Position numbers and translations under genes: made by a program. From a virus: a stretch of 22,440 nucleotides of DNA. The notes under the pieces are model-generated. The model was not told the DNA's origin. It saw nothing but the letters and a program-made list of their open reading frames with translations, and did no database searches. The DNA is taken from the IMG/VR virus record IMGVR_UViG_3300034101_003119, positions 1-22,440 of that record. The stretch is one strand, 5' to 3'. Positions 1,045-15,511 of the stretch are shown here, piece after piece (within the stretch, counting starts at the first letter, position 1; each line of letters begins with the position of its first letter).

Positions 1045-1370
1045 GCAGGCCCCCAATGCGCGTCCATCCAGGCCACCAGCTTCGGGCCGCTCCGGGGATG
1101 CTTTCGCGCGTACTGCGCGGCACCGGCACGGAAGCAACTCGCAATCGGCAGGTTGCGCTTGCGGCCGTACTTCACGACCTCGCGCGTCTTGGTGTCGACC
1201 GTCACGGCCGTCTCGACGATGCAGAGTTTGTCGGCAACGATGCGATAGCCCGCGAACTTCCACACCGTCTCCGTGCTCGGCCCGTAGTATTCCCGCGAGT
1301 CGTCCGGCGGGTTGAAGTCGCCGGGGCCGATGGTGACGCGCGGCCCCATGGTGTGATTGATCCAACTCAT
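1041..1370 (-). CDS. Hypothetical phage protein
   Basis: 109 residues, ATG at 1370 overlapping the stop of the upstream gene (ATGA). No family is recognised. The N-terminal half is beta-rich (repeated short hydrophobic strands around VWKFAGYRIVADKLCIVETAVTV), and the C-terminal 40 residues are basic and helical, ending HPRSGPKLVAWMDAHWGPA. Two cysteines are present but no metal-binding pattern. Its place directly after the putative ssDNA-binding/annealing protein makes a recombination accessory role possible, but that is context only. Confidence 0.65.
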   Translation of the reverse strand: MSWINHTMGPRVTIGPGDFNPPDDSREYYGPSTETVWKFAGYRIVADKLCIVETAVTVDTKTREVVKYGRKRNLPIASCFRAGAAQYARKHPRSGPKLVAWMDAHWGPA

Positions 1371-2062
1371 GCCGCATCTCCGTCGAAGGGGTTGCCGTCG
1401 TCCACGGGCGGGGGCGGCGCAAGGTACGTCCGCAGGTCCGCCGCCCACTCGCCGCGGACCTTGCCCGCGAGGTACTTGGCCGTGCGCTCGTTCCACGTCT
1501 CGGGCGGGCCGGGGGACTTGCCGGTCTTGGCCTCGCAGAACTCCAGAAACCCCACCATGTCGCAGCCCATCTCGCGCAGCACGGCGCGCACGCTGGCGCG
1601 ATAGTCGTCGGCGCTCGGGGGCAGCGCGTCGTCCTGCTGCACGGCGCGGGGCTGCGGCGCGAGCTTCAAGACCTCGATGCGGTGTGGCGCCTTCTTCCCG
1701 CGGGTCTTGGCAAGCATGATGTCGACGGGCTTGTCGATGCCCGTCACGGCGCGGACCCGGATGCCGCCCACCTTTTCGCCGCCGAACATCACGTTCGGGT
1801 CGCGGTAGAGTTCGACGGTCTGCCCGATCCACTTCCGCGCGTGAACGCCCCAGCACGCGGCGAGGCACCTGCGCGCCGTCTTGCCGGGCTTCCACGGCTG
1901 ATGGCCACCCGAGATGGTGATGATGACCGGCTGGTCTTCGTCGCCCGCGGAGACGTCCTCGATGCGGACCACGATGGGGCCGGCGATGAGGTCGTCCGCG
2001 TTGAGCTGGTCTGATTTCGCGGCGAGAGTGCCGCTGATGTCGTCGTCGTCGTTGTCGCTCAT
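1367..2062 (-). CDS. Putative ssDNA-binding or annealing partner of the exonuclease
   Basis: 231 residues, ATG at 2062, one base after the stop of the RecE-like gene. Residues about 20-125 are a beta-rich domain with conserved-looking features: GGHQPWKPGKTARRCLAACWG, VELYRDPNVMFGGEKVGGIR and a basic TRGKKAPHR segment. I recall similar sequences in other phages, but no assigned function. The C-terminal 100 residues are helical, then a proline run (PPPPV) leads to an acidic tip DDGNPFDGDAA. That tip resembles the DDDIPF tail by which bacterial SSB proteins recruit partners, although here five residues follow. In phage recombination operons the gene beside a RecE/lambda-Exo-type exonuclease usually encodes a single-strand annealing protein. 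An ssDNA-binding or annealing role is therefore inferred, not shown; no RecT, Erf or Red-beta signature is visible. Confidence 0.6.
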   Translation of the reverse strand: MSDNDDDDISGTLAAKSDQLNADDLIAGPIVVRIEDVSAGDEDQPVIITISGGHQPWKPGKTARRCLAACWGVHARKWIGQTVELYRDPNVMFGGEKVGGIRVRAVTGIDKPVDIMLAKTRGKKAPHRIEVLKLAPQPRAVQQDDALPPSADDYRASVRAVLREMGCDMVGFLEFCEAKTGKSPGPPETWNERTAKYLAGKVRGEWAADLRTYLAPPPPVDDGNPFDGDAA

Positions 2063-2063
2063 G

Positions 2064-2936
2064 TCACACCGCCTCGTCGATGATGATTTCGGACTCGTCT
2101 TCCGGGTACGCCCACCCCGGGAGGTCGAACTCGACCTCCCCCTCGACCGGGCCGGGCCAGATGCCCGACGCCTCACACTCGGCGAGCGTCGCCAAGGCCG
2201 CCCGGTACTCCTGGCGACCTCGCTCGAGGACATGCTCCGGGATTCTGTAGACCGCGACCGCGTGGGGCGCGGCGGACTCGACCACGATTTCCACCATCAG
2301 TGGCAGCCGCCCCGTGATGGCCTGGAAACCGTCGCAGTAGAACGCCCACTGCCAGTGGTAGGCCAAATCCGCCGCCTGCGCGGCGAACTTCCTGGGCCGC
2401 AGGTCGCGGGTCGTCTTGAGCCCGACCACAACGTCGCACCCGTCGATGGCGGTCAGCCAGTCCACGCGGCCTTTGCACGCCGTCCCCGTCTCCGCGTCGT
2501 GCCAGGCCATGGACACCTCCGCGTGACCGTGGCGCAGGTACACCATGGCCTCGGGGCAGCTGCGGACGGCTGTGGCGATGGCGAGAGCCTCGTCGCGCTC
2601 GTCTTCGGTCAGCACAGCCATTCCGCGGCCATCCGCGTCGGCCTTGAACATCTCCCACTCTCTGCCCGCGCGCCGACCTCCGGTCCACACGGCGAACGAG
2701 TCGGCGAACCGCTCGGGCTCCAGCGTGGCACAGTGCGCTGCCGTCCCGAGCGCCATGGCCGACGATGTGGGCTTCGGGTTGTCCTTCGCGTGGCGGTAGT
2801 GCAGCGGTGAGCGGTTGAACTCCTTCAGGCTCGACACGTTGACGCCGGCCGCGGCGCAGTACCGGGCGAAGTCGACGCCGGCCACGATGCGCCCGGCCTT
2901 GTTGGATTCGAGCACTGCGGGGTTGGTGGCGCTCAT
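2064..2936 (-). CDS. RecE-like PD-(D/E)XK exonuclease
   Basis: 290 residues, close to the size of the exonuclease VIII C-terminal nuclease domain family. It should act as a 5'-3' dsDNA exonuclease that makes single-strand tails for annealing-type recombination. The expected order of motifs is present: S35-S36-L37-K38 and S43-P44-x-H46-Y47 near the N-terminus, M61-x-L63-G64-T65-A66-x-H68, E140, G156-R157-V158-D159-W160, then G172-L173-K174-T175-T176. In the RecE family the last motif normally reads DLKTT; here the acidic residue is glycine (codon GGG), so one metal ligand appears to be missing while H68, E140, D159 and K174 remain. ATG at 2936 overlaps the upstream stop (ATGA). Activity may be lost or altered; the family call itself is secure. 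Confidence 0.82.
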   Translation of the reverse strand: MSATNPAVLESNKAGRIVAGVDFARYCAAAGVNVSSLKEFNRSPLHYRHAKDNPKPTSSAMALGTAAHCATLEPERFADSFAVWTGGRRAGREWEMFKADADGRGMAVLTEDERDEALAIATAVRSCPEAMVYLRHGHAEVSMAWHDAETGTACKGRVDWLTAIDGCDVVVGLKTTRDLRPRKFAAQAADLAYHWQWAFYCDGFQAITGRLPLMVEIVVESAAPHAVAVYRIPEHVLERGRQEYRAALATLAECEASGIWPGPVEGEVEFDLPGWAYPEDESEIIIDEAV

Positions 2937-3898: not shown

Positions 3899-4798
3899 GT
3901 GTCGTATTGGCTGAAGCTCTATCAGGACACCCACGCCGACGCCCGATTGCGCAAGGCCCGCGCTCGCGCAATCTGGCCTTGGATTCTCTGCCGCTTGAAG
4001 GACGGGGACGGGTTCGCGACCGACGCAGACCTCGACCCGTGGCGCGCATCGGACGACCATGACGAGGTGTTTTCCGAAGCCGAGGCCGCAGGGATGATTG
4101 AGCGGCTGAAGTCGGCCGGCCTGCTCGTGTCGACGGATTGCGGGTGGGCCTGCCCCGAGTGGGAGCGCCACGTCGGCGACCCTACGAACGCCGACCGGCA
4201 GAAGCGGTTCAGGGATAGGAAGCGAGCGCAGGATCAATCGAAGGAAACAGTAACGCCGAGTAACGGTTACGAACCGTTACTAACGTTACGTAACGGGAGT
4301 AACGGTAGAGCAGAGCAGAGCAGAGCAGAGAAGAAAGACGGTGATGAAGTGGAGGTTACGCGCGTGTGTGCGGTTGAAACACCGGCGCCGACCGTGGCCG
4401 AGGCCACCCAGGACGAAGTGCAGACGAAAATCCAGAATCACCCGGCGCACGACGCAATCCTCCCGATTGCCCGCGCCGCGTTCTCCATCCTCGGCGTCTG
4501 CCCAGAGGTCTACACCCTCGAATCCTGGCTCCAGGCCGGCTACTCGCTGGCGCGAATCGAATACGGGTTGCGGCAGGCCAAGCAATCCGCGGCTGGCCAA
4601 TGGATGCCCATGGGTAAGATTATCATCTCCGCGGGGCGATGGATGCAGCGGGCCGCCCCGGAAGAGTATCAGAAACGGCCCCAGCAGGCCGCAGGAGGCG
4701 CGAAAGCGGTGCAACCCATACCCACACCGCAGGAGCCGGCCAAGCAGTCCCTAACGGCCGAAGAGACGGCCGCGGCGTTTGCGGAGATTCTCGGATGA
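3899..4798 (+). CDS. Phage replication initiator / replisome organiser
   Basis: 299 residues with a GTG start (VSYWLKLYQDTH). The N-terminal 100 residues look like the winged-helix domain of phage initiator proteins: a WLKLY strand, helices around ARLRKARARAIWPWILCRL, FATDADL, then MIERLKSAGLLV leading to a wing. It ends in NADRQKRFRDRKR, a basic segment typical of phage O-like proteins. A low-complexity linker (about residues 115-155) follows, encoded by the iteron cluster. A C-terminal domain (about 175-265: HDAILPIARAAF to GKIIISAGRWMQ) probably recruits the helicase encoded immediately downstream, to which it is joined by an ATGA overlap. The arrangement (initiator with origin repeats inside its own gene, helicase next) matches lambda O-P style modules. 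Exact family is not identified. Confidence 0.75.
   Translation: MSYWLKLYQDTHADARLRKARARAIWPWILCRLKDGDGFATDADLDPWRASDDHDEVFSEAEAAGMIERLKSAGLLVSTDCGWACPEWERHVGDPTNADRQKRFRDRKRAQDQSKETVTPSNGYEPLLTLRNGSNGRAEQSRAEKKDGDEVEVTRVCAVETPAPTVAEATQDEVQTKIQNHPAHDAILPIARAAFSILGVCPEVYTLESWLQAGYSLARIEYGLRQAKQSAAGQWMPMGKIIISAGRWMQRAAPEEYQKRPQQAAGGAKAVQPIPTPQEPAKQSLTAEETAAAFAEILG
4249..4308. repeat. Iteron cluster, probable replication origin
   Basis: Six copies of the hexamer GTAACG lie within about 55 bases: on the plus strand at 4250, 4260, 4290 and 4299, and on the minus strand (as CGTTAC) at 4275-4280 and 4284-4289. Three sit in the longer context AGTAACG. A perfect inverted repeat joins GTAACGGTT (4260-4268) to AACCGTTAC (4272-4280) across three bases. 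Overlapping palindromes TAACGTTA (4281-4288) and GTTACGTAAC (4285-4294) follow. The cluster lies inside the linker of the initiator gene and is far less GC-rich than its surroundings. Known phage origins of the lambda type have this placement; origin function is inference. Confidence 0.68.
4307..4330 (+). repeat. Tandem AGAGC pentamer repeat beside the iterons
   Basis: Four full copies of AGAGC plus AGAG, starting directly at the end of the iteron cluster. The strand is purine-rich and could act as part of an unwinding or primer-loading region. In the protein it encodes the low-complexity string RAEQSRAEK. It could also be simple slippage, tolerated because it falls in a linker. Confidence 0.75.
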
Positions 4799-6141
4799 AA
4801 CTCAACAGGACTGAGCTAGCCGAGGTCTTGACCATCGCGTGCTGCCTTGTCGGCGGCACGGATGCCATGGACATTGCCTCGGACCATTGCAGCGCCGAGG
4901 ACTTCGTGAACTCGCGGGCGGCATCGGCATTCCGCGCGATGTCGCAGCTAGTGGCCCGCGGCGACCCCATCGATATCGTAACCGTGGCCACGACCATGGG
5001 CGGCGCAGCATGGAACCGCGAAACCGGGTCGGAGCGCATCGACTCTGACGCCCTTTCGTGGCTTGCGGAGCTTGAGGGCAACGCGCCGTTTGTGCGCGAC
5101 GTCGGCCACCATGCGAAGCGGGTCCGGACCGCCGCGCGCCTCCGTGGCATTGAAGAGGCATGCCGCGCCGGGCTCGCCGCCTGCCAGTCTGCCAGCGACG
5201 ACACCGACGCCGCGGCACAGGTCGCGGACGGCATCGTAGAGGGCCTGCTCGCGGTTGGCGACAAGGCGAGCGGAGCGACGTCCATTCGCATCTCGGGTGC
5301 CGTGAAACTCATGCTCGCCGACTTCAAGGCCCGGCAGACGACGCCGATTGAACGGCAGTACGTGCGGACCGGATTGAGCAAGCTCGACAACCTGGTCGAC
5401 GGCTACCGGCCGGGGCACCTGTACCTGGTCGGCGGCGCCCCGGGGCACGGCAAAACCGGCTTTCTCACCTTCGCCGCGGTGCAAGGCGCCATCGCCGGGG
5501 CCGCAGTGCTCTACGCCTCGGCCGAGGTGCCCGCGGAGGCCATCGCGCAGCGTGTCGTGTGCAACGTCGCCCGCGTGGACGGCCGGAAGTTGGAACGGCT
5601 CGACCTTGACCGCGACGAGACGACGCAGGTTGTCGGCAGTACGCATCGCATCGCCGAGTGGCCGCTCTCCATCCTCGACGCGCCTGCCTTGACCGTGGGC
5701 CTGCTTGACCGCGAGGTGCGCCGGCACGTCAAGCGCAACCCGGAGCGCATCGGCGTTCTGGTCGTGGACTACCTGCAGCTTGTCCGCGCCAGCGGGAAGC
5801 ACGGCAGCCGAGAGCAGGAGGTCGCCGAGGTCGCGGACGGCCTGCTCGAACTCTCAAAGCGGCACCGCATCGTGGTCATCGCCGGGGCGCAGCTCAATCG
5901 TGCGGGCGGGCAGCGGTCGGACAAACGCCCCGTCAGTGCCGACCTCCGCGAGTCGAGCCGCGGGGAGCACAATGCGTCCGTCGTGCTGATGCTGTACCGC
6001 CCGGGGATGAACGGCGAGGACGCCGCCGACCCGACGCACGCCGAAATCATCGTACGCAAGAACCGACTCGGGCCGCTCGGAACCGCGCTCTGCGTATTCG
6101 ACGCCGCCCGCAACACATGGAGGGACCGGGATGGATTCTGA
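4795..6141 (+). CDS. DnaB-like replicative helicase
   Basis: 448 residues, the usual size for a DnaB-type hexameric helicase that unwinds the fork 5' to 3'. The N-terminal helical domain (about 1-100) starts MKLNRTELAEVLTIACCLVG. The RecA-like C-terminal domain has Walker A GGAPGHGKT (213-221), a Walker B strand VLVVDYLQLV with D325, and the family pattern near its end, VRKNRLGPLGT, corresponding to the conserved K-R-G loop. The ATG at 4795 overlaps the initiator stop (ATGA), so the two are made together. A longer upstream frame exists but overlaps the initiator gene and is discarded. The N-terminal domain is short and diverged compared with E. coli DnaB, as is common in phages. Confident family assignment. 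Confidence 0.93.
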   Translation: MKLNRTELAEVLTIACCLVGGTDAMDIASDHCSAEDFVNSRAASAFRAMSQLVARGDPIDIVTVATTMGGAAWNRETGSERIDSDALSWLAELEGNAPFVRDVGHHAKRVRTAARLRGIEEACRAGLAACQSASDDTDAAAQVADGIVEGLLAVGDKASGATSIRISGAVKLMLADFKARQTTPIERQYVRTGLSKLDNLVDGYRPGHLYLVGGAPGHGKTGFLTFAAVQGAIAGAAVLYASAEVPAEAIAQRVVCNVARVDGRKLERLDLDRDETTQVVGSTHRIAEWPLSILDAPALTVGLLDREVRRHVKRNPERIGVLVVDYLQLVRASGKHGSREQEVAEVADGLLELSKRHRIVVIAGAQLNRAGGQRSDKRPVSADLRESSRGEHNASVVLMLYRPGMNGEDAADPTHAEIIVRKNRLGPLGTALCVFDAARNTWRDRDGF

Positions 6142-8380: not shown

Positions 8381-8862
8381 AGCGATGCCCAGGAACGAAG
8401 GTCGACGGCGAATGGACGGGCTTTATCTGCGTGCTCGACGCGGGTCATCCCGAGCGCTTCTGCCGGCCGTACATCCCGCCCGACGCGGACGAGTGGCGGG
8501 CGCTCAAGGCGCGGGCGATGGAGTTGGAAGTCCGATTGGGGGATTGGTCGATTCGGGCGCAGAGCGCCGAGATTGAACTCGCCGCCGCGCTCGACCGTGA
8601 AAAGCACACCGACGCGACGTGCGCCCGCCTGCAAGCCGAGCTCGACGCCCTGCGCGCCGTGGTCGAGTCGGGCGCGTTGTCCGCAATCCAGGCCGCGGAC
8701 ATGCTCGCCAAGGTCAGAGATAACGCCTACGCATGGCCCTACGGCGTCGCGTGGGCCTGCAAAGAGGCGCACCGGCTGCTCACGGGCGGGCCGCCCGATG
8801 GGGTCTACGTGAAGGTGCAGCGTGACGACCTCGCGGGGTTGGCGCGCAAGGGGGACGCATGA
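8377..8862 (+). CDS. Protein with Cys/His knuckle and coiled coil
   Basis: 161 residues, GTG start at 8377 overlapping the previous stop; AGGAGGAGG at 8361-8369 gives a strong ribosome-binding site. The N-terminus carries a potential zinc site C4-x13-C18-x5-H24-x4-C29 (FICVLDAGHPERFC). Residues about 45-115 are a charged helical region likely to form a coiled coil (EWRALKARAMELEVRLGDW to ARLQAELDALRAVVE), and the end is mixed. The same knuckle appears in the gene at 9413. A protein- or nucleic-acid-binding accessory role is plausible; no named family. Confidence 0.65.
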   Translation: MKRCPGTKVDGEWTGFICVLDAGHPERFCRPYIPPDADEWRALKARAMELEVRLGDWSIRAQSAEIELAAALDREKHTDATCARLQAELDALRAVVESGALSAIQAADMLAKVRDNAYAWPYGVAWACKEAHRLLTGGPPDGVYVKVQRDDLAGLARKGDA

Positions 8863-9416
8863 CCGGCCTCGCCGCAGACGTCGCAGCCGCGTCCCGCTCG
8901 CACGCCGGACGCACCGCCCGCGCGACCGGCGAGGCATTCGAGCTCGCGCTTGACCGCTATCACCGCACGCTCGAAACCCAGGGCCGTGCCTACGTTCGCC
9001 GCGTCGGTGCGCCGATTGCGGTGCTCGGCAAGGTGTCGCGAGATGCCCGCGGCCGGCACATCTTCCGGGCGGCGTGGGACGGATTCCAGGGCGTCGACTT
9101 CACCGGGCACACCCAAACCGGGGTTCACATCGCCATCGAGGCTAAGACGCACGCAGGGCTCGGCGCGTGGGACTGCGGCATCGACCCGACCGGAGATGCG
9201 AGCGAGAACGGCGCGATTCAAGCCCGGCAGTGGGTCGAGCTTCGCCGCGTGGAACTCTGCGGCGGGATCGCGTTCATCATACTGCGCGCGTGGGGCCGAG
9301 AGTGGGCAATCCCGCCGCACATGCTGGCCCTGCACGTATCGACGAAGGGCCGGCGCACTGTGCGGCCGGACGAGATTGACGCGATTGGATTTCGCGGATT
9401 GGAGTGGATGCGATGA
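8859..9416 (+). CDS. RecU-like Holliday junction resolvase
   Basis: 185 residues, typical for RecU-type resolvases of phages and Firmicutes. It should cut four-way DNA junctions formed in replication and recombination. The PD-(D/E)XK nuclease core is visible: G24-E25-x2-E28 in the first helix, D80 (GVDFTG), E94-A95-K96 (IAIEAKTHAG), then Q-x2-Q-W-V-E-L and the GGIAFIIL strand that is characteristic of RecU. The ATG at 8859 overlaps the previous stop (ATGA). It lies between small accessory genes in the replication block, where phages commonly place their resolvase to clear branches before packaging. The assignment is good; a general Holliday-junction-resolvase-like nuclease is the only serious alternative. 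Confidence 0.8.
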   Translation: MTGLAADVAAASRSHAGRTARATGEAFELALDRYHRTLETQGRAYVRRVGAPIAVLGKVSRDARGRHIFRAAWDGFQGVDFTGHTQTGVHIAIEAKTHAGLGAWDCGIDPTGDASENGAIQARQWVELRRVELCGGIAFIILRAWGREWAIPPHMLALHVSTKGRRTVRPDEIDAIGFRGLEWMR

Positions 9417-10074: not shown

Positions 10075-10283
10075 CCGTGACCGTCGTCAACCATGCAACC
10101 GGCGTCGACCTGACCCTGCGCATTCCAGGCCTGCACCCGGTCAAGGTCCGCGCTGCGACGCTGGCCGACGCCGCGGCGTGCGCCCGCCTCATCATGGCCG
10201 ACGAGCGCCACAAGATGATGGTGATGCTCGACGGCATCGACGCGGAGTTGGTGGCGCTCAGTACGCGAACGGAAGAACCATGA
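10071..10283 (+). CDS. Small hypothetical protein
   Basis: 70 residues, ATG at 10071 overlapping the previous stop (ATGA). A beta-rich first half (TVTVVNHATGVDLTLRIPG) is followed by two helices (TLADAAACARLIMADERHKMMVMLDGIDAELVAL). No family is recognised. It is coupled by another ATGA to the SF2 helicase that follows and may be made in proportion to it. Confidence 0.6.
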   Translation: MTVTVVNHATGVDLTLRIPGLHPVKVRAATLADAAACARLIMADERHKMMVMLDGIDAELVALSTRTEEP

Positions 10284-12241
10284 CCCCATATCCACACCAG
10301 AGGGCAGCAGTCGACGCCGTGGCCGGCGCGCTGGTCGCATCCGACCGATGCCGCGTTACGATGGCATGCGGAACCGGGAAAACAGAAACGGCCGCGTGGT
10401 CATGCGTCGGGGTCGGCACTCGGGAGGTCACCGCGCGAATCGTGGTCGGGCTGCCGTCACTGAACCTCGTCGACCAGACATGGCGCCGGTGGGCCGGTAT
10501 GTTCCAGATGCCGCCCGCGATGGCGGTGTGCTCCGACGAAAAGGTCGGGCGCGAGGTCTTCCGCGTGGCCGACTACGGGCTGCCGCGCGCATCGACGGAC
10601 CCGGGCGAGATTGCCCGTTTTCTCGCCACCGGCGGCCCGTGCGTGGTCTTCTGCACCTACCAGAGCGCCGAACAGTTGGCCGAGGCGATGGACTCGCCCG
10701 GGGTGCCGCCTTTTGACTTTGCCATCTGTGACGAGGCGCACCGACTCACGGGCAAGGGCTCGCAGGGCGCCGCGTTTCTGGACAACGGCCGAATCCGCGC
10801 GACCCGCCGCACGTTCTGGACGGCCACGCCCCGCATCGTCCGCGGCGACGACGTGATTTCCATGGATGACCCCAAGCAATTCGGGGCGCCCGTCTTCACG
10901 TACTCGTTCGGCGACGCCATCCGCGATGGGCGCCTGTCGCAGTTTCAGATTGTGGCGGTGCAAGTCGATGACCCTCGCGTGTCCGATGCGCTCGCGTCCG
11001 ACAAGGGCGTCGAGGACGCCGCTGTGGTGGTCGCCGTCGCAAAGGCGATGCGTGAGCACGGCTTGCGCCGGGTCATCAGCTTTCACTCTCTCGTAGCACG
11101 CGCTGCGGCGTTCGCCGAGGCGCTCCCCAAGGTCTGCGCCAGCCTGCCCGGCGAGCACAGAATCGAGGGCGTCTACGCTAACCACATTCACGCAGGAACG
11201 CCGATGGACGTTCGCCGGGCCGAGTTGGCGCGGCTTCGTTCAGCAGATGGGTGGACGCTTCTTTCCAATGCGCGATGCCTCGGCGAAGGCGTCGACGTGC
11301 CGGAGCTCGACGGCATCGTGTTCGCGGACCCGCGCACGTCCGAAATCGAAATCTGGCAGGCCATCGGGCGAGCTATTCGGAAGTCCGGCGAGGGCAAGGT
11401 CGCAACGGTCCTGATTCCGGTCTTCATTCCGAAGGGCATGGACGCAGAGCAGGCTATCGAAGGCGGCCGTTTTCGACCCGTGTTCTCCGTGCTCAAGGCG
11501 ATGCAGGCCCATGACCCGAGCATGTCGGAGGTCATCGTCAAGTGGAGCGAGCGGGCGAAGCCGAGCGGCATGGGCGAGGCGAAAGACGCGGAGCCGCTGC
11601 GCTTCATGTTCCACGGGTCGGTGAGCATGGCGGCCGCGCTTTCGGCGGTGGTCGTCACGCGCTCGGCGGTGGATGTTGACTGGGATTCCGTCCCGCTTGG
11701 CAGCGCATCCGACGCGAGGATTGCGCGAGAGATTGGCGTGTCGGCTACGGCGGTCGCACGTCAACGGATCGCCAGAGGGATCGAGGCGTACGCACCGAAG
11801 CGAGACATAGACTGGGATGATTGCGGGCTTGGGATGATGCCTGACACCGCGATTGCTAAAACCCTCGGCGTGTCCGCTGGATGCGTTGCGCACAAGCGCC
11901 AAGAGCGCGGAATTCGCCCCTTCGTCAAGGAACTGAAGTGCGCAAGGTGCGAGTGCGCGTTCAGGCCCGGATCGGCCAAGTCGAAATTTTGCTCGCTTAG
12001 GTGCCGGCGTGGCTCGGAATACTCCCCGATGAGAAACGCATTGCTTGCGGCGAGGGAGGCTGCGCACGCAGGAAAGCAGTGCTTCAACTGCGGTGGTGCG
12101 GTAGGCGTTACGCGCAAAGCGAATGCACGGTTTTGCAGTGAAAAGTGCCGCCAGAAAGCGGCAGGCAAAAGGCAGAGCGTGCGCGCCCGAAGGGCGGCGA
12201 GAATCGGCGCTGAATCCGCATCGGACTCGTCGGTTGCGTGA
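10280..12241 (+). CDS. SF2 helicase with helix-turn-helix repeats and two zinc fingers
   Basis: 653 residues, ATG at 10280 overlapping the previous stop (ATGA). The first 450 residues are a DEAH-type superfamily 2 helicase related to the Res subunit group: Q-motif region Y4-P-H-Q7, Walker A ACGTGKT (29-35), DEAH (151-154), motif III TATP (about 182-185), and motif VI QAIGRAIR (360-367). After a linker come two tandem helix-turn-helix repeats (about 465-501 and 509-545), each beginning D-x-D-W-D and ending x-R-G-I. Two zinc fingers follow: C554-x2-C557-x13-C571-x3-C575 and C601-x2-C604-x14-C619-x3-C623. A basic tail ends the chain. The helicase should translocate on DNA, with the tail supplying sequence recognition. 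The tail is less GC-rich and holds three of the rare GATC sites. No nuclease domain is seen, so a restriction enzyme is unlikely. Confidence 0.85.
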   Translation: MTPYPHQRAAVDAVAGALVASDRCRVTMACGTGKTETAAWSCVGVGTREVTARIVVGLPSLNLVDQTWRRWAGMFQMPPAMAVCSDEKVGREVFRVADYGLPRASTDPGEIARFLATGGPCVVFCTYQSAEQLAEAMDSPGVPPFDFAICDEAHRLTGKGSQGAAFLDNGRIRATRRTFWTATPRIVRGDDVISMDDPKQFGAPVFTYSFGDAIRDGRLSQFQIVAVQVDDPRVSDALASDKGVEDAAVVVAVAKAMREHGLRRVISFHSLVARAAAFAEALPKVCASLPGEHRIEGVYANHIHAGTPMDVRRAELARLRSADGWTLLSNARCLGEGVDVPELDGIVFADPRTSEIEIWQAIGRAIRKSGEGKVATVLIPVFIPKGMDAEQAIEGGRFRPVFSVLKAMQAHDPSMSEVIVKWSERAKPSGMGEAKDAEPLRFMFHGSVSMAAALSAVVVTRSAVDVDWDSVPLGSASDARIAREIGVSATAVARQRIARGIEAYAPKRDIDWDDCGLGMMPDTAIAKTLGVSAGCVAHKRQERGIRPFVKELKCARCECAFRPGSAKSKFCSLRCRRGSEYSPMRNALLAAREAAHAGKQCFNCGGAVGVTRKANARFCSEKCRQKAAGKRQSVRARRAARIGAESASDSSVA

Positions 12242-14122: not shown

Positions 14123-14151
14123 TTGAAAGTTATCACCGCCCCGTGTAGCGT
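14123..14151 (+). promoter_or_regulatory. Probable leaderless promoter for the head genes
   Basis: TTGAAA (14123-14128), a 17-base spacer and TAGCGT (14146-14151), then seven bases to the portal ATG at 14159. No Shine-Dalgarno lies in those bases. An inverted repeat TGATA-N9-TATCA (14117-14121 and 14131-14135) overlaps the -35 and could be an operator. It is the only noncoding stretch inside the head module and the most AT-rich there, which supports regulation at this point. Confidence 0.6.
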
Positions 14152-14158
14152 GGCGGCC

Positions 14159-15511
14159 ATGTTCGGCATCGTCGACAAGCTGCGGGCGAAGTTCATGCGC
14201 GACGACTCGCGCAGGGCCGACGCTCCCATCGGCCGTATCGGTGGCCCGACGACGACGAACGGCGCGGCCTACGAGCCCGCGCGCCGGTATCAGGCGCACC
14301 CTGACCGCATCCTCGCCATGCGGTCGGCGCTCGTCTGCCCCCCGGTGTACGTGGCCCTCGGCATGTGGCGCGACCTGATGCGCGTGCCGACGCCGCGAAT
14401 CGAGCCGGGCAAGGTGGGCGACGCCGAGCCGACGCCGAACGCCATCGCCTACGCCGAGCACGTCAAAGCTTGCCTCGGCATTGGCTCTGCGAGCCCCGCC
14501 GGAGTGCGGTGGTCGTCTCTGTGGGGAGAGCTTCTGGGCTCCGTCGAGTACGGATTCGGCGCGTGGGAGACCATCGCGGAGGAGCACCAAGGCGAGTGGT
14601 ACACGGTATTGAAGTACCGCGACCCCGCCAGCATCGCGTGGTGGGTCATGGGCGAGGATGAAGAACTCGCCGGGTGCGTGCAGCAACCGTTGTCCGGCTA
14701 CGGGCGCGGCGTCGAGATTCCCGCGTCGCAGCTGTTCCGGCTCACGTGGCGCCCCGTCTCCCGCTCCGACTTCTCCGGCATTGGCATCCTTCGCCCGGCC
14801 GCGACCCTCGCCGTTGACCATGCCGCCGCGGCTCAACTCCGCATCGTGGGCGTCCAGCGGTTCGCGGTCGGCACCCCGGTTGCCAAGGTGGACGCCGAGA
14901 CGGCCGCACGCCTCGGCCCGCAGGCAGTGAAAGACGCCGACGACATCGCGACGATGCTCAGTGACTACGCATCGAGCGACCGCGCCTATCTCGTCCCGCC
15001 GCCCGGGTGGGACGTGTCCATCTTCGGGGCCGACTACGACGTCAGCCGCATCAACGCAGTACTCGCCGACATCTCGCGGTCCATCTACGAGCTCGTCGCG
15101 ATGCAGTGGATGCTCTTGGGCTCCGGCGAGGGCGGCGGCTCATACTCGCTCGGCGAGACGCAGGTAGCAGCGTCGCGGCAGAGCGCGCAGGCCGTGTGCG
15201 ATTGGCTCGCGGAGGAGGTCAACGCCGGCCTGATTCCGCGCGTCGTGAAGTGGCGCTTCGGCGAGGTCGCCGCGGCGGACCTGCCGCGGCTGCACTTCGA
15301 CGGGCTCGCCTCGGAGGCGTTCGTCACGCATCTGAACGTCCTCGCGTCGCTCCAGGCAGGCGGAATCACGGCAATCGGCCCCGAGTCGCGCGCCAAGATT
15401 CACGCCGCGCTTGAGCTCGCCCCACCCGAAGAGAAGCGCAGCGTGGGCCTCGGCTTGCGCCCGCAGACCTCGGCCGCCCCACCCATGCCAACCCCCGCGG
15501 GGAGCCCATGA
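14159..15511 (+). CDS. Portal protein, Mu-like (DUF935 type)
   Basis: 450 residues. It forms the dodecameric ring at the head vertex through which DNA enters and leaves. The sequence fits the Mu-type portal family: a central WGELLGSVEYGFGAWETIAEEHQGEWYTVLKYRDP block, LFRLTWRPVSRSDFSGIGILRPA, then a helical region leading to SIYELVAMQWMLLGSGEGGGSYSLGETQ. The C-terminus is a Pro/Ala-rich tail. ATG 14159 is chosen because it follows the promoter -10 by seven bases; an upstream in-frame TTG (14123) falls inside the -35. It lies directly after the large terminase, its packaging partner, and overlaps the protease gene by ATGA. Family assignment is from recalled pattern. Confidence 0.85.
   Translation: MFGIVDKLRAKFMRDDSRRADAPIGRIGGPTTTNGAAYEPARRYQAHPDRILAMRSALVCPPVYVALGMWRDLMRVPTPRIEPGKVGDAEPTPNAIAYAEHVKACLGIGSASPAGVRWSSLWGELLGSVEYGFGAWETIAEEHQGEWYTVLKYRDPASIAWWVMGEDEELAGCVQQPLSGYGRGVEIPASQLFRLTWRPVSRSDFSGIGILRPAATLAVDHAAAAQLRIVGVQRFAVGTPVAKVDAETAARLGPQAVKDADDIATMLSDYASSDRAYLVPPPGWDVSIFGADYDVSRINAVLADISRSIYELVAMQWMLLGSGEGGGSYSLGETQVAASRQSAQAVCDWLAEEVNAGLIPRVVKWRFGEVAAADLPRLHFDGLASEAFVTHLNVLASLQAGGITAIGPESRAKIHAALELAPPEEKRSVGLGLRPQTSAAPPMPTPAGSP

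Follow-up and report, generated by a model that had tools for sequence, protein, structure and literature searches.

Exonucleases of the RecE / exonuclease VIII family are toroidal oligomers with 5'-to-3' exonuclease activity. Lambda exonuclease holds metal A through D119, E129 and L130 and uses K131 to activate water (PMC6199318), and in MGME1 the ligands of metal A are His180, Asp238, Asp251 and Trp252 O, with Glu223 working via a water at metal B and with activity drastically cut by the D251N replacement (PMC6237815). In both enzymes the acid in question (E129 and D251, respectively) stays on the strand of the catalytic lysine.

Residues of such active sites are able to migrate. Carboxylate migration leading to a PD-XXK-E arrangement has been described for Cfr10I, NgoMIV and similar restriction enzymes (PMC551604, PMC6344858, PMC1189080), and in Cfr10I, NgoMIV and SgrAI of the CCGG family the (D/E)XK acid is gone from the lysine's strand and one further along the sequence stands in for it (PMC551604, PMC6344858). 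In the COG4636 family a catalytic residue, there the lysine, has likewise moved while the spatial site is preserved (PMC551604).

Here we describe a RecE-like nuclease gene carried on a 22,440-base IMG/VR virus contig, the whole of which was analysed and is referred to below as the window. The product has glycine (G172) in place of the second acid of PD-(D/E)XK, and we give a probability of roughly 0.7 to the reading that it is an active RecE-type nuclease whose second carboxylate for metal binding has passed from D172 to E216. It is thus the carboxylate that would have moved in the window nuclease, in contrast to the lysine of COG4636. A search of the open-licence PMC literature found no report of an acid migration of the G172/E216 kind in PD-(D/E)XK or RecE-type enzymes, and no usable mutant study of RecE was found.

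The window nuclease and the glycine at position 172

The protein of 290 residues matched the Pfam DUF3799 (PF12684) profile with an E value of 2e-28 (100 bits against a cut-off of 26) and the PHROG 412 'exonuclease VIII' profile with an E value of 3e-73. A sequence match to 3h4r, the RecE nuclease domain of known structure (E 2e-27), aligned the Asp of its DVKTT motif with G172. An AlphaFold model built with 102 sequences in the input had a mean pLDDT of 94.8; the first structure prediction was made without L013, which has an in-frame stop, and without several near-copies. RecE 3h4r was the top structural match of the model (Z 22.2, rmsd 2.7, 212 residues), and the fold was shared with lambda exonuclease (1avq, Z 10.6) and MGME1 (8xa9, Z 12.2). 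The same metal A ligands as in these two enzymes would be expected in the window protein, save for the moved acid.

The RecE-family profile, the RecE nuclease fold and the His, Glu, Asp, Lys and Q-x3-Y positions were therefore all present and held in common with E. coli RecE, which differs in having Asp at the position of G172 and Phe at that of E216. H68, E140, D159, K174, Q196 and Y200 of the window protein were near-invariant among 306 distinct homologs, Y200 being found in 302 of them (Table 1). The first acid and the lysine of orthodox PD-(D/E)XK enzymes lie on successive core strands, and so they do in the model, with D159 on the strand at 153-164 and K174 on that at 167-176. However, the residue two places ahead of the catalytic lysine, Asp or Glu in orthodox members, is Gly here. 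The protein is thus a variant and not an orthodox member of PD-(D/E)XK, its place in the RecE family being given by sequence and fold.

Table 1. Coordinates in the window of the nuclease gene, its neighbour and the residues and strands discussed in the text; fractions over 306 refer to distinct homologs.
Feature	Position	Strand	Basis or distribution
Gene of the RecE-like nuclease (exonuclease VIII, DUF3799; 290 aa)	2064..2936	(-)	ORF, profiles and model
PHROG 11517 protein, directly downstream of the nuclease	1367..2062	(-)	Profile; in 32/32 glycine-type loci
H68, motif Ia histidine	2733..2735	(-)	301/306; gaps account for 2 of the 5 exceptions
E140, motif I glutamate	2517..2519	(-)	305/306
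D159, first acid of PD-(D/E)XK	2460..2462	(-)	306/306
Strand beta3 (residues 167-176), carries G172, L173 and K174	2409..2438	(-)	Model secondary structure
Codon of G172 (GGG)	2421..2423	(-)	Asp 269/306, Glu 5/306, Gly 32/306
K174, catalytic lysine	2415..2417	(-)	306/306
Codon of W197, aromatic adjoining catalytic Q196	2346..2348	(-)	Glycine-type: W 29, F 3; other 274: F 1, W 0
Strand beta4 (residues 213-220), carries E216	2277..2300	(-)	Model secondary structure
Codon of E216 (GAA), proposed relocated metal-binding acid, on beta4	2289..2291	(-)	Glu in 32/32 glycine-type

The original prediction, which had read GLKTT in place of the family motif DLKTT with H68, E140, D159 and K174 intact, was borne out, and D165 and D168 are also where it had put them. 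The codon it gave for G172, GGG, was correct, but the interval attached to it, 2413-2421, lay about two bases off, the LKT codons occupying 2412-2420.

Relatives were collected by scans of IMG/VR and of a small number of annotated records of phages and plasmids, which yielded 409 loci. Together with the window these gave the 306 distinct homologs, once the copies L001, L092 and L093 and all proteins that duplicated another or lay wholly within one had been dropped. Glycine at 172 was found in 32 proteins, namely that of the window and those of 31 other IMG/VR contigs, with pairwise identities from 0.37 upwards and a median of 0.48. The two nearest relatives, L002 (90%) and L003 (84%), come from other metagenomes and also read GLKTT, with the codons GGT and GGC, and over the glycine group, the window included, codon 172 was GGC in 16 cases, GGG in nine, GGA in five and GGT in two.

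Searches outside the IMG/VR contigs brought no further member of this type. No relative of the nuclease was found in scans of a collection of genome contigs, and none of the plasmid records searched gave a match reaching 60% identity. The best match of a glycine-type protein among the phage records was MW202476, which is Asp-type, at 46%; no glycine type was found in a cultured phage, residue 172 having been read in MW202476, five further phage records and two plasmid records. Two other variations were seen at or near this position. The five distinct homologs with Glu at 172 (ELKT or EIKT) are L018 (from the same contig as L347), L344, L119, L121 and L122, and L013, a near-copy of L012 on a contig shared with L290 and L326, has an in-frame stop at the codon equivalent to 176, just past the catalytic lysine, which points to a sequencing error or else to a disrupted gene.

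Columns that separate the glycine group and its ancestry

A column was taken to separate the groups when it held at most two letters within the glycine group and at most three of the other 274 homologs shared them. Across the 306 homologs this was true of columns 172, 197 and 216 only. Glutamate occupied position 216 in every glycine-type protein, a frequency that, like that of W197 in the same group, may be inflated by the patterns of the scans used to enlarge it, while none of the 274 relatives with Asp or Glu at 172 had an acid there; these carried F (230), I (20), L (12), W (4), V (3), M (3) or C (2). Exactly one acid was consequently present over positions 172 and 216 in all 306 proteins, at 172 in 274 and at 216 in 32, and never none or two. 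The first six glycine-type sequences had come from a broader scan and a single-protein scan, and the patterns of the enlarging scans contained or allowed W197 or E216 but never G172. Because G172 was never part of a pattern, its link to E216 and W197 was not built in.

Shared ancestry means, however, that the 32 co-occurrences of G172 and E216 are not independent, and the whole glycine group may represent one event. Trees were built without columns 172, 197 and 216, and these gave a supported set (97/93 and 97/85) composed of the glycine group and the Asp-type L094, which was nested inside it. L094, also fetched as L336, has D172, L197 and I216. The best trees require two changes, but a single glycine clade was not rejected (AU test, p 0.453 and 0.295), so that neither two independent origins nor a reversion in L094 is claimed here. 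A single origin, or an exchange followed by reversal at L094, is possible, and if L094 is a reversal, the two acid positions could be equivalent and the site able to switch from one to the other.

The proposed active site and competing explanations

The rest of the catalytic site was retained in the glycine group, with D159, K174 and E140 in 32/32 proteins and H68 in all 30 that cover its region. The gene was under purifying selection (dN/dS 0.08-0.30 across eight pairs), and both Glu codons were used at 216 as were all four Gly codons at 172, from which we conclude that G172 and E216 are themselves held by selection. By correspondence with the MGME1 ligands, metal A of ordinary relatives would be bound by H68, D159, Asp172 on beta3 and the main-chain oxygen of residue 173, with E140 as the counterpart of Glu223. 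Given these ligands, those of lambda exonuclease and the effect of D251N, the loss of the acid at 172 should be costly if it were not replaced, and still purifying selection acts on the gene, with the remainder of the site retained; the simplest reading is thus that E216 supplies the missing carboxylate. In the window protein Glu216, from the parallel strand beta4 predicted to lie next to beta3, would span the vacant position of residue 172 and offer its carboxylate to the metal, Gly at 172 making room for it. K174 would activate the attacking water and E140 would serve the second metal as before, and the aromatic residue at 197 may repack the pocket. An enzyme of this kind would bind metal through E216, cut DNA and presumably resect ends for the protein of the neighbouring gene.

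The placement of 216 was approached through strand register. In the AlphaFold model, beta3 and beta4 are connected by the helix bearing Q196, W197 and Y200. Direct coupling analysis was run without the glycine-type sequences, on 221 and then on 274 sequences (effective number 150). Both runs gave parallel pairing at offsets 42 and 44 as the best arrangement of beta3 and beta4, which sets 172 alongside 214 and 216, all on one face of the sheet. In the run with 221 sequences b1-b2, b2-b3 and b4-b5 were best paired antiparallel, as the fold expects. Parallel pairing was best in 24 of 25 resamples, at offset 42 in 17 and at offset 44 in seven, the remaining one giving offset 44 with a higher antiparallel score. 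The signal was modest, the best single pairs between beta3 and beta4 having z of 3-4, and offset 42 (172 beside 214) was favoured over 44. These couplings support a model in which beta3 and beta4 are neighbours and 172 probably lies beside 214-216 on the same face.

The reach of a glutamate was calculated for a parallel sheet of ideal geometry. When the Glu lay directly alongside 172, its carboxyl carbon could come within 1.8-2.0 A of the position of the Asp carboxyl without a clash against the glycine backbone, and from the opposite side of the strand the distance was 3.1 A. With 216 two residues out of register the reach fell short, the carbon remaining at least 4.4 A away.

This last geometry bears on the strongest of the competing explanations, in which activity persists on a reduced metal A site made up of H68, D159, the oxygen of residue 173 and water, and E216 contributes from the second shell or structurally, perhaps by orienting K174 or by pairing with another residue. 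The couplings back offset 42 at least as well as 44, which would leave 216 somewhat out of register, and enzymes of the RecB type use His at metal A (His180 in MGME1), so that one ligand fewer is perhaps tolerated. Nevertheless, the one-for-one exchange of acids throughout the 306 homologs is more simply explained by direct replacement, and the severity of D251N in MGME1 also argues against a site that lacks this ligand; we regard the explanation as unlikely.

Somewhat less likely again is a catalytically dead protein that serves the product of the adjacent gene as a DNA-binding or loading factor. The original prediction had offered the choice between such an inactive factor and an enzyme in which another residue has taken over. 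The second acid of PD-(D/E)XK is indeed missing at 172, the superfamily has inactivated members such as the nuclease-like domain described in RecC (PMC1185551), and the strongly reduced activity of MGME1 D251N points the same way. A dead site should drift, however, whereas the catalytic residues are kept throughout a group with a median identity of only 0.48, under the selection noted above; moreover, position 172 is strictly Gly with no mixture of Ala, Asn or Ser, and the new acid is at 216 every time. Of the two options, therefore, it was the takeover by another residue that was supported, with E216 as the probable residue and not D165 or D168, which had been named as candidates. Relatives of proven nuclease activity that carry the glycine would, in the original prediction, have refuted it; no assayed glycine-type protein was found, nor an assay of any other member.

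It is very improbable that another nearby acid, whether D165, D168 or E267, substitutes for D172. Among the 32 glycine-type proteins position 165 was D in 16, E in 10, G in two and N, H, R or a gap in one each, and position 168 was P in 16, D in seven and other residues in nine. At position 267 an acid occurs in 94% of the glycine-type proteins against 6.6% of the others, but E267 is also carried by 8 of the 9 Asp- or Glu-type sisters listed; as most of the near Asp-type sisters already have it, E267 did not appear together with the loss of D172 and is not coupled to it.

A sequencing or assembly error at codon 172, which the original prediction had named as grounds for refutation, can be dismissed even though metagenome contigs such as the window may carry single-base differences, since 31 further contigs, among them relatives from other metagenomes, retain the glycine, and all four of its codons are in use.

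Retaining the reading in which E216 has replaced D172, we compared it with the known cases of carboxylate migration. In lambda exonuclease and MGME1 the acid is on the lysine's strand, and in the window protein it would not be. In Cfr10I-type enzymes the replacement acid sits on a helix. The new acid of the CCGG family comes soon after the lysine, a feature that the window protein does not share, as E216 lies 42 residues past K174 and is placed by the model on beta4. What would be new in comparison with these restriction enzymes is thus that the acid has moved within RecE exonucleases and that it has landed on beta4. We lean towards the view that this phage RecE-type clade represents an undescribed PD-(D/E)XK arrangement, with the second metal-binding acid on beta4 and Gly at the old place, in which the exchange may even be reversed in one lineage (L094). 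If this is correct, a widespread nuclease of DNA recombination exchanges one of its core catalytic residues between two positions within one family, in which both acid states are sampled by many natural sequences, and active-site migration, so far known mainly from comparisons of distant restriction enzymes, becomes testable by a two-residue swap. It would also follow that a broken-looking motif need not mean a dead protein, and that annotation by motif would overlook or misread no fewer than 32 distinct phage enzymes.

The neighbouring gene and the rest of the fragment

The gene directly downstream of the nuclease encodes a protein whose profile gave matches at every glycine-type locus and at 20 of 111 other loci examined, 22 of the neighbours matching by construction since the profile was built from them. 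The neighbour was also present in the near sisters L004, L018, L094, L101, L102, L104, L105 and L106. As the pairing is shared with the nearest Asp-type relatives (L004, L094, L101 and L102) it seems older than the exchange, and the role of the nuclease therefore seems to be unchanged, with no new role acquired.

Neither Pfam nor PHROG gave the neighbour protein of the window a RecT identity. In its model a beta domain at the N terminus, weakly matching OB-like folds, is followed by a C-terminal helical domain, and the best match of the C-terminal part (residues 150-211) was the C-terminal domain of Red-beta bound to lambda exonuclease (6m9k), a weak one at Z 6.1. Since even the best fold match is of this strength the fold is a lead only. 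The protein may act with the exonuclease as its partner in annealing or loading.

The window encodes a second recombination nuclease, a RecU-like Holliday junction resolvase at 8859-9416 (+), which matched PHROG 843 (E 5e-12) and fell below the cut-off of the Pfam RecU profile. A DEAD/ResIII-type helicase is encoded at 10178-12241 (+), its C-terminal part being weakly like HNH or treble-clef motifs. Finally, a DnaB-like replicative helicase at 4795-6141 (+) and, at 14123-15511 (+), a portal protein of the Mu type (PF06074, E 2e-18) occur on the same fragment, a combination that suggests a mosaic phage.
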